A stretch of 64,000 nucleotides of DNA. It comes from an uncultured Prevotellaceae bacterium. Its GTDB lineage: Bacteria; Bacteroidota; Bacteroidia; Bacteroidales; Muribaculaceae. The translations under genes were made by a program, and so were the position numbers. The DNA is taken from the NCBI GenBank assembly GCA_947165675.1, contig CAMVBJ010000001.1, forward strand, positions 62,001-126,000, read 5' to 3'. Shown here piece by piece: positions 9,045 to 32,734 of the stretch (position 1 is the stretch's first letter; each line of letters opens with the position of its first letter). The notes below the pieces were generated by a model that was given only the letters and a program-made list of their open reading frames with translations, was not told the DNA's origin and made no database searches.

Positions 9045-10925
9045 TTACTCCTGGTCGCTGTCCCACCATACGGGGATGGTCCAAGCATCATCCTGAGTGT
9101 TCCAAATCACTTTGTTGCCCTCGCTGTCAGTCATGCGGGCGCCGGGAACCTTTTCGCCAATGGCCTGCAAGTTCACACTGTTGTACTTGTACTCATGTGA
9201 GCACTGGCGCCAGCGGCGATACTGCTTGCCCTCGGGGATAGCATTGGTTGCGGCAACCACCTTATAGTGGTAAGCGGGAATCGACCAACCGAAGAAGATG
9301 TTGGGATCGAAGTCATAGCGGCGCATATCGTTCCAGATCTCATAGGAGAACATCAGGGCGATGCGCTTCTGCATCAGGATGTGACCCAGGGTGAGCTCAC
9401 CTTGAGTACCGATACCGGTGTTCACGAAGTTGTCGATGGCTTCCTGTGTCATCGGGGTGAACGACGGGCAGTCGGCGAGGGAAGCATCCTCGGCAATCCA
9501 AGTCCTGAGCTTGTCATTCATCAACTCGCAGCTGGCCTTGACACCAGCCTTGTAGGCATTGTAGGCACCACCCTTGTCACCCTTCTTGAAGAGCACCTCG
9601 GCGCGGATGAAGCAGCACTCGGCATAGGTGCCGATGTAGGTAGGCGAACTTACGCGGGTGTAGAACGTACCTGACTCGGCCGACTGGAACTTACCGCTAC
9701 CGGCGCGGCAGTACAGGATGCTGGGGTTAGCGAAGTAACCCTTGCAGTCACTGGTACCCTCGATATAGACAGTATCACCCTTGCGGGCCTCGTTGGAACT
9801 GTTGATGTACCAACTGTTGGTCTCGGTGTTGAACATGGCGCGCAGGGGACCACCTTGGCTATTGATTTCGCTGGCCATGTCAACGCCCAGCGTACGGCGC
9901 CAGTGACCATTCCACTTGATGCCGGCAGCATCGAGACCATTTCCTTCCCTGTTGGGACTGTAAGCCCAAGGCAGGATGTGGTCGGCACGGGGATCCTCGA
10001 CACCCTTACCAGCAAAGTTGGTCAGGTTGTCGTAGAGCATCTTGGTTGCCATGTAACCGGAGTTCATACCACTAACCGAGAACAGAGGTGAGTAGTCAAC
10101 GGGCTCATCCCAACCCAGCACGTCGTGCGTGGGACCGTTGTCGTCGGTGTGGTTGACGATGGTGTTGTCGGCATTGCTCTGCATAGCCTTGTCAAGGCAG
10201 CGTAGGATCTCGTCGGCATCATACTTACCGTCCTTGTAACTGCCAGCGCCCTTCTTGTTCAACTTGTTGATCCAGCGGGCCTTCAACATGTAGGCAAGTT
10301 TGATCCACTTGTTCAGATCGCCATGGTTCCAGAAGTCACCAGCAGCCAGCGTGGGCAACTTGGGATCCTGGCTCTGACCCTTCTCAAGGTACTCGATGGC
10401 CTTGTCGATGGTCTCCAAGCAACCTAAATAAATTTCCTTACCCGTATTGTAGTGGGGAGCAGGGCTGTCAGCGGCAGCCTCTTCATATGGCATTTCGCCA
10501 TAGAGGTCGGTCATGGCCATAAAGCCGTAAGCCTTGATCAGGTAGCCGGCACCGGCAAACTGCCAATTCTCGACAGCCTCGGCCTTGGCAATCATGTCGG
10601 GCACGTTGGCGTAGGCACCCACGAACCACCACTGATAGGGCGTAGTCACCTGGGCCTCAACGGGATACCAATATGAAACGTGCCAGTAGTTACCGCCACC
10701 GTTGTTACGGGTCCAGTCACCCATGGCCATGGTGGTACGCCAAGCACCGAACTGCAAACCGCTATTGGTATAGAACTCAATGTGCGCCAGACGCTGGTCA
10801 TAACTTGTGATTTTGTCCGTGGGGTTATTGGGATCCACGTTCACATCCAACCAGTCGTTGCAAGAAGTCAGCGACAACGCTGCAACTCCCAGACCGCACA
10901 GTATAATTGATTTCAATGATTTCAT
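9045..10925 (-). CDS. SusD/RagB family nutrient-binding outer membrane lipoprotein
   Basis: Lipobox LSLTSCNDWLDV; paired with susC upstream; start reset to MKSLKSIILCG. Confidence 0.92.
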   Translation of the reverse strand: MKSLKSIILCGLGVAALSLTSCNDWLDVNVDPNNPTDKITSYDQRLAHIEFYTNSGLQFGAWRTTMAMGDWTRNNGGGNYWHVSYWYPVEAQVTTPYQWWFVGAYANVPDMIAKAEAVENWQFAGAGYLIKAYGFMAMTDLYGEMPYEEAAADSPAPHYNTGKEIYLGCLETIDKAIEYLEKGQSQDPKLPTLAAGDFWNHGDLNKWIKLAYMLKARWINKLNKKGAGSYKDGKYDADEILRCLDKAMQSNADNTIVNHTDDNGPTHDVLGWDEPVDYSPLFSVSGMNSGYMATKMLYDNLTNFAGKGVEDPRADHILPWAYSPNREGNGLDAAGIKWNGHWRRTLGVDMASEINSQGGPLRAMFNTETNSWYINSSNEARKGDTVYIEGTSDCKGYFANPSILYCRAGSGKFQSAESGTFYTRVSSPTYIGTYAECCFIRAEVLFKKGDKGGAYNAYKAGVKASCELMNDKLRTWIAEDASLADCPSFTPMTQEAIDNFVNTGIGTQGELTLGHILMQKRIALMFSYEIWNDMRRYDFDPNIFFGWSIPAYHYKVVAATNAIPEGKQYRRWRQCSHEYKYNSVNLQAIGEKVPGARMTDSEGNKVIWNTQDDAWTIPVWWDSDQE

Positions 10926-31378: not shown

Positions 31379-31401
31379 CCTGATCAATCCCTCATTTTAT
31401 T

Positions 31402-31577
31402 GGGACTTCTATAAATTACCAAAAAGATAGTTCTTAGTGTTGGATGCCTTTGGCCGCTTTTCGGCATCTTTTGCCTTACCTTCTTGAACCATAGCTTGCT
31501 ATGCTCCTGCGAAGGTAAGACAAAATCTACTCGAAAATCAATCCAAATTCATTCCAAGCTAATTTATAGAAGCCCCC
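31402..31577. mobile_element. MITE-like non-autonomous element, 176 bp
   Basis: Terminal inverted repeats gggacttctataaatta / taatttatagaagccccc; flanking 5-bp direct repeat TTATT (31397-31401 and 31578-31582); internal hairpins; no ORF. Confidence 0.75.
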
Positions 31578-32378
31578 TTATTTCTTAATTCCTGAAACAT
31601 CCACCTTGCCACTACCGGCGATATCCTCGGTGTGGGTGCCCACGTTGCCGCGCAGTATCACGTCACCCGAACCGGCAATCGAGGTGCTGACTTGGTCCAC
31701 GTTCAAGCAACTCAGCATGATGTCGCCCGAGCCGGCAATCTCGTTTTTCACATTCTTGCAGATGAGAGCAGCCAACTCAATGCTGCCTGAACCGGCAATG
31801 GTATTTTTCAGCCCGACGGCCTGAACATTGCCCAGAATGATATCTCCCGAGCCGGCAATCTCGATATCCAGGTCCTTGCAATTGAGCCTATCCAGTGTAA
31901 TGTCGCCCGAGCCAGCGATTTCAAGATGCATATCGCCCACAGCCAGTGCCTTGGGAGCTGTCACTGACCCCGAACCGGCAATCTCGATGCTCTCTACCAT
32001 GGGGGTTGATACAAACACCCTCATGCCCTTAAAGAACTTGCCCGCATCCACCATGTCCTCCTTCATGTCGATGACCAGATCACCATCCTTGACATAGATG
32101 GTCATGCTTGTGAGTTGGTCCACGGTGCCGTCCACACGCACCGTTGCGGCCTGACCCTGCTCCAGGATGACGTTAAACGGGCCTGCCACGTCGATTTGGC
32201 TAAACTGTTGCATCTGGGTCACTTCACCCACTTGATGCACCTGGGTGGGTGTGTCGTTGTGTCGTCCAGCTTTGTTGACGATAGACCAGCCATTCTCACC
32301 GATTTTCACACGCATGCATGATGACATCGTCATCACTACCAGAGCCGCAAGGCTTAACATTACAAAAATCTTCTTCAT
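31578..32378 (-). CDS. DUF2807-type head-GIN domain lipoprotein (beta-helix-like repeats)
   Basis: Lipobox MTMSSCMRV; repeated IEIAGSGDI motifs; start reset to MKKIFVML. Confidence 0.85.
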   Translation of the reverse strand: MKKIFVMLSLAALVVMTMSSCMRVKIGENGWSIVNKAGRHNDTPTQVHQVGEVTQMQQFSQIDVAGPFNVILEQGQAATVRVDGTVDQLTSMTIYVKDGDLVIDMKEDMVDAGKFFKGMRVFVSTPMVESIEIAGSGSVTAPKALAVGDMHLEIAGSGDITLDRLNCKDLDIEIAGSGDIILGNVQAVGLKNTIAGSGSIELAALICKNVKNEIAGSGDIMLSCLNVDQVSTSIAGSGDVILRGNVGTHTEDIAGSGKVDVSGIKK

Positions 32379-32455
32379 GTCGTTGTCTGTTATTGAGTTG
32401 TTATTGTCCTTCCTTAATATAGACGCACGACCACCCCAAAAAGTTTCACATTTTC

Positions 32456-32734
32456 TCAAAAAAAATTATTTTTGGTGCATCTGGAAAAGCCACGGAAATG
32501 GTTCATCTCGGTGGTCTCGTCATTACCAGTGCACCAGCCATAACTCTTGCCGTCGCTTACCGAGGACACATACACATTGCACCAGTAGGTGCCGCCGCCT
32601 GCATCACTGTAATTACTGCTGACGGCATGAGCCATCACGGGCAACATCATCAGTGCCAGTAGCAACGCTAATCGGTTGATCTTGCTATTCATAATCTTGA
32701 GATGATATTTGAAAATTTGGTTAATCTCTCGCAC
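32456..32734 (-). CDS. Small secreted hypothetical protein
   Basis: Signal-like INRLALLLALMMLPVMAHA then Cys/Trp/Gly-rich mature part; actual start possibly internal (MNSKINRLA). Confidence 0.45.
   Translation of the reverse strand: MREINQIFKYHLKIMNSKINRLALLLALMMLPVMAHAVSSNYSDAGGGTYWCNVYVSSVSDGKSYGWCTGNDETTEMNHFRGFSRCTKNNFF

Follow-up and report, generated by a model that had tools for sequence, protein, structure and literature searches.

The window analyzed here, the whole stretch of 64,000 nucleotides (G000:C1:62001-126000, G000 being its source genome), carries a short structured sequence directly at the stop codon of a DUF2807 gene, which raises the question of whether it is a mobile element, and if so moved by what, or an RNA structure belonging to that gene. 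An earlier note, made from the letters alone, had called it a 176-bp MITE-like element; the features it described are present in the sequence, and its overall interpretation is partly supported by our analysis. On comparative sequence grounds, we hold it very probable that this is a member of a non-autonomous MITE family moved in trans by an IS5-family transposase of the transpos_IS5_4 group, which inserted at the DUF2807 stop.

In terms of anatomy, the inverted arms that had been noticed are there, with the 17 nucleotides at 31402-31418 and 31560-31576 being 94% complementary. However, the length of about 17 bp given for the terminal inverted repeats (TIRs) falls short: the true TIR is 18 bp, GGGGAYTTCTATAAATTA, and in the window copy its first base has changed from G to T at 31401. 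The element hence extends from 31401 rather than 31402 and measures 177 bp, the length of most copies in the genus (Table 1). As previously remarked, it is non-coding, containing no ORF that reaches 60 aa. Its size, within the 50-1000 bp range of MITEs, the absence of a transposase gene and the 18-bp TIRs are all as expected for this class.

Pairing of the TIRs in the fetched loci delivered 68 copies, of which the 52 with good TIRs were used to count target-site duplications (TSDs). The flanks of the GGGG...CCCC unit match over exactly four bases in 31 of these (60%), whereas a mismatched-flank control, which pairs left and right flanks taken from different copies, gives 7.7%; none of the well-preserved copies (0/52) matches over five to nine bases. 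The 5-bp duplication TTATT proposed earlier must thus be rejected in favor of the 4-bp TTAT. TTATT does stand on both sides of the element (31397-31401 and 31578-31582), but the loss of the first G of the left TIR makes TTAT look like TTATT, the additional letter being, at the left, the mutated TIR base and, at the right, a flanking T that matches by chance. The duplications are A/T-rich, with TTAA, TTTA, ATAA, TAAA and TCAA being typical.

Table 1. Features at the insertion locus, in window positions.
Feature	Position	Strand	Remarks
MITE, 177 bp	31401..31577	- (strand with most stable RNA fold)	9 more copies in own genome; boundaries from 68 paired copies
Left terminal inverted repeat, TGGGACTTCTATAAATTA	31401..31418	+	First base changed from G to T; the pattern GGGRAYTTCTATMAATTA has 15 sites without mismatch in G000
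Right terminal inverted repeat	31560..31577	-	GGGGGCTTCTATAAATTA when read on - strand
Target-site duplication TTAT, left copy	31397..31400	.	Strand not assigned
Target-site duplication TTAT, right copy	31578..31581	.	Strand not assigned; DUF2807 stop codon within
Inner hairpin, TTTTGCCTTACCTTC / GAAGGTAAGACAAAA	31469..31525	-	Covarying core; arms 31469-31483 and 31511-31525; apical CATAGC-TT-GCTATG stem 31490-31503
DUF2807 gene, ORF as listed	31578..32459	-	Pfam PF10988, 124 bits; ends at insertion site
Convergent upstream gene, 327 aa	30395..31378	+	No Pfam match; together with DUF2807, marks orthologous site in relatives

The BLAST search against the own genome that the earlier note had suggested recovers ten copies in G000, counting the window copy; the nine others are 76-94% identical to it, lie in both orientations and have flanks unrelated to each other, with the one on contig C2 being interrupted by another repeat. 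Among 61 searched genomes, G000 included, the family is found in 13, all of the same genus, while scanning 101 genus genomes for the TIR yields matches in 14, a reversed control pattern giving almost none. Many dispersed copies are seen in G073, G100, G118 and G005. G073 has 74 TIR sites, and its contigs mostly end 124-149 bases inside nearly identical copies, which demonstrates a recent burst in one species; we rejected the reading of these contig-end TIRs as collapsed insertion sequences, as they are the MITE itself. The family thereby accounts for one kind of contig break in these assemblies. By a simple ORF caller, nearly all of 58 copies are intergenic, and their orientations to the neighboring genes are close to even (++ 20, -- 13, -+ 14, +- 11), with any bias being too weak to claim.

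The copies outside the window display further variety. Several of them (L004 on G000:C2; L236 and L238 in G100; L089 and L249 in G073; L268 in G118) contain an inserted palindromic repeat of 53-69 bp, CTCAGCAAA...GCAAGCTC...TTTGCATTCGGCTTGCAC or a close variant, and another MITE-like unit, bounded by GGCTGTGTCATAATT...AATTATGACACAGCC, is nested in MITE copies and also found elsewhere (L263, L265; also L221); both are absent from the window. The genus has, moreover, a second MITE subfamily with the TIR GGTGGGTTC. Internal deletion derivatives of 40-89 bp keep both TIRs (L251, L252 and L253 in G118; L250 in G073; L256 on G000:C40). Because L251 and L250 retain perfect 4-bp TSDs, mobility may persist down to a length of 40 bp.

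At the insertion site, the element abuts the DUF2807 stop as had been described: the TAA (- strand, 31578-31580) lies inside the right TSD copy, and the Pfam match confirms the gene assignment. Translation of this gene more likely starts from the ATG at 32378 than from the start of the listed ORF. The convergent neighbor is present in 79 of the 101 genus genomes. We sought DUF2807 in 30 fetched loci, the own one included, and found it convergent with and adjacent to the 327-aa gene in 25 relatives, where the spacers measure 0-218 bases, in most cases below 130, and contain no TIR-like sequence; the window spacer minus the element and one duplicate amounts to about 24 bases. Since the same convergent pair has element-less spacers in these 25 relatives, the insertion is, by this comparison, specific to the lineage of the G000 genome. 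The empty site anticipated in the earlier note was thus recovered as an element-less spacer; a base-exact site with a single TTATT was not, because the spacers have diverged beyond alignment. In several relatives the spacer after the 327-aa gene consists of TTAGGAGT/ACTCCTAA-type heptamer repeats able to pair mutually (L197, L198, L202, L213, L218, L219, L224).

These observations bear on the idea that we are dealing with a structured RNA or terminator that is native to the DUF2807 gene and does not move. Its position directly at the stop codon and its stable fold are what such an RNA might look like, but the ten dispersed copies, the TSDs and the same spacer without the element in 25 relatives contradict it, as does the absence of an Rfam family for the element (two microRNA matches fell far below threshold and were rejected). 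In our view, the empty sites and the scattered copies refute a resident origin, to which we accord almost no probability. The earlier suggestion that the insertion might serve as 3' UTR or terminator accordingly splits: a 3' UTR role agrees with where the element lies and with which strand folds more stably, whereas a terminator is not supported, as no T-tract follows the stem and scanning the element for terminators gives nothing, unlike the G+C-rich stem and T run of a Rho-independent terminator. Likewise, the pattern that had been named as fatal to the MITE call, a single copy in all genomes with no empty sites, did not occur, and the call withstood every check proposed for it.

With regard to what moves the element, insertion sequences (IS) with the same TIRs, as the earlier note had thought worth seeking, exist among the IS5-family elements of other Bacteroidales. 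Scanning for the TIR across the taxonomic family turned up GGGAACTTCTATAAATTA in other genera. Some of these sites belong to different MITEs, about 196 bp long, which form a related yet distinct family with the TIR GGGRACTTCTATAAATTA in another genus of the same family (L112, L116, L117, L122, L125). At L109, the terminal motif runs into an open frame starting like an IS5 transposase, and a full IS of 1319 bp was found in G175 (L131), whose 355-aa protein (P0001) has DDE_Tnp_1 and DUF772 domains and scores 269 bits against NF033581 (transpos_IS5_4, cut-off 140). A scan of species genomes for IS gave 19 loci, in which the ends carry the motif in a GGGRASTTCTATAAATTA-like form on the left and a GGGAGGTTCTATAAATTC-like form on the right. 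With flanks read by eye, L178 shows the terminal motif GGGAACTTCTATAAATTA with the TSD TAAA, and matching 4-bp flanks were likewise seen at L185 (TTTA), L188 (TAAA), L189 (TTCT) and L183 (TAGA), several other copies having no matching TSD. On a viral contig (L225), the left end of the IS is exactly GGGGACTTCTATAAATTA and the right end GGTGGGTTCTATCAATTC, with TTAA on both sides; this right end matches the TIR of the second MITE subfamily of the genus, and the transposase scores 314 bits for transpos_IS5_4 (cut-off 140) while being 52-79% identical to the other transposases. Thus, TIR and TSD length are shared with autonomous elements at L225, L178, L185, L188, L189 and L183. Beyond the terminal 18 bp, we saw no obvious common sequence between MITE and IS. 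At the left end of the L225 IS, a 138-base direct duplication joined by N (9113-9268) is probably an assembly artefact. L115, L118 and L119 have a TIR-like site with no transposase nearby and were set aside as IS, as were the unpaired sites of the viral matches L226-L228, which are probably due to chance.

The same anatomy decides against a REP/BIME-like repeat mobilized by a RAYT (TnpA-REP) transposase: such repeats are similarly palindromic, intergenic and dispersed, but each end here bears an 18-bp TIR, the duplication is 4 bp and IS with the same ends exist, all of which contradicts this kinship and makes it exceedingly improbable. Within the genus itself, searches with a single protein (positive controls G175 and G246), the family model and a nine-sequence profile (which had no control of its own) found no IS5_4-type transposase in G000 or the 101 genus genomes, nearly all of which are drafts. 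A parent transposase usually accompanies an IS5-family MITE in its genome, though this is not strictly part of the definition; its absence here weighs little, because repeated IS are often lost from draft assemblies. Weak NF033581 matches on G000 contigs C61, C33 and C39 lack these TIRs and were rejected as an own-genome transposase. From the shared termini and 4-bp duplications we infer that the mobilizer is likely an IS5-type transposase, with the transpos_IS5_4 group as the candidate source.

As to the fold, and going further than the earlier note, the 177 bp form one long imperfect palindrome whose arms covary, interior included. The folding z of the window copy is -5.2 as + strand RNA, -5.2 as DNA and -9.6 as - strand RNA, with 0 shuffles doing as well. 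In an alignment of 40 copies, 67-94% identical to that of the window, RNAalifold predicts a single long hairpin of 51 pairs, of which 46 are also predicted on the opposite strand. For these 46, 97.0% of cells are paired, and 25 pairs have changed on both sides while still pairing; double-change cells number 140, where shuffles give 31.7 (sd 6.3) and slid controls 9-31. The covariation of helix 1, i.e., the TIR, could come from one transposase recognizing both ends; the interior helices 2-8, however, covary too, in 20 of 31 pairs. A conserved stem-loop, as in ERIC-like elements, is thus observed. All three internal hairpins previously described exist in the sequence, but the GATGCC/GGCATC one (31443-31448/31463-31468) is a local one and not part of the conserved fold, as most copies lack a matching GGCATC there.

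One might read this fold as being maintained in RNA: the co-transcribed - strand would fold and alter mRNA stability, with transposition only spreading the element, a functional proposal compatible with a MITE origin. The reach of the covariation into helices 2-8 speaks for this, as does the strand preference: the - strand RNA, which in the window is the DUF2807 sense strand, is more stable in 40/40 copies (mean -67.1 vs -54.7 kcal/mol), which share ancestry and are not 40 independent observations, and in 35/40 by z against dinucleotide shuffles (-8.7 vs -6.6). Further, among the pairs that both strands are predicted to form, cells with G-U outnumber those with A-C 54:19; parsimony on a tree yields 40 paired-to-paired changes, 37 to G-U and 18 to A-C (37:18, two-sided p = 0.014). 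Against it stand the near-even gene orientation of the 58 copies and the missing terminator-like T-tract, leaving maintenance as RNA a tentative possibility that we nevertheless take seriously. The hairpin might instead be maintained as DNA, with a cruciform or single-strand hairpin aiding transposition, or with quasi-palindrome mutagenesis copying arm onto arm to give double changes. The DNA fold z, the covariation spanning the whole length including the TIR, and the 174-178 bp length held by most full copies at 67-94% identity would all agree with this. The G-U over A-C asymmetry is, however, unexpected under a strand-symmetric constraint, and hairpin DNA is not known to be required for IS5-family transposition; we regard the DNA alternative as a tentative possibility too, slightly less likely than the RNA one. 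Taken together, the strand asymmetry leans towards RNA over DNA constraint, though the effect is moderate and the copies share ancestry.

Returning to the IS5-linked MITE, we propose the following mechanism. Full-length IS with the same 18-bp ends would supply in trans a DDE transposase (IS5 family, NCBIfam transpos_IS5_4 group) that recognizes GGGGAYTTCTATAAATTA, moves the element and duplicates four A/T-rich target bases. In the G000 lineage, insertion took place at the DUF2807 stop codon, in the short spacer of two convergent genes, with the duplication preserving the stop. The - strand transcript, here the DUF2807 3' UTR, might then form a hairpin tolerated or useful at mRNA 3' ends. A bolder version, in which a transposon-spread RNA element has its one-strand hairpin held by selection in the genus while its transposase comes from outside the genus, seems to us unlikely; if true, each insertion would plant a ready-made 3' UTR structure beside a gene. 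Either way, the full-length covarying arms offer a case for asking whether selection on a mobile element acts through its RNA fold or its DNA ends.

Bacterial hairpin MITEs such as ERIC, YPAL, NEMIS and RUP are well known (PMC2229807, PMC2267715; review PMC10969869), and ERIC in Yersinia is reported to alter mRNA stability as a co-transcribed hairpin. The element studied here is of an ordinary kind, with its mobilizer type well supported and its hairpin evolutionarily kept, yet its family is apparently undescribed: we found no description of it in the open-licence literature, which makes this an apparently unreported Bacteroidales MITE family linked to a specific IS5 transposase group. Like ERIC, YPAL and NEMIS of enterobacteria and Neisseria (PMC2229807, PMC2267715), it is intergenic, dispersed and within 100-200 bp, with a transcript predicted as one long stem-loop; its sequence is unrelated to theirs, and so is its host phylum. 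Terminal TA motifs mark ERIC, NEMIS and RUP, the last of which is linked to IS630, whereas the present MITE is linked to IS5 and has a 4-bp TSD. Closer in host, Porphyromonas gingivalis has MITEs (BrickBuilt, MITE239 and MITE464/PgRS) whose TIRs match IS5-family IS (PMC4596501); these differ in their own TIRs (GAGACC..., ACGTCA/ACGTGA...) and in having parent-like IS in the same genomes, and BrickBuilt and 464/PgRS, unlike the present MITE, carry tandem repeats. The IS5-family IS of Bacteroidales (NF033581; e.g., L188/L189 of Prevotella denticola NCTC13067) share with the MITE the motif TTCTATAAATT in 18-bp TIRs and a 4-bp A/T-rich TSD, but are about 1.3 kb long and code for a transposase of about 350 aa, the MITE sharing their ends alone. 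In sum, it is an IS5-linked, ERIC-like hairpin MITE.
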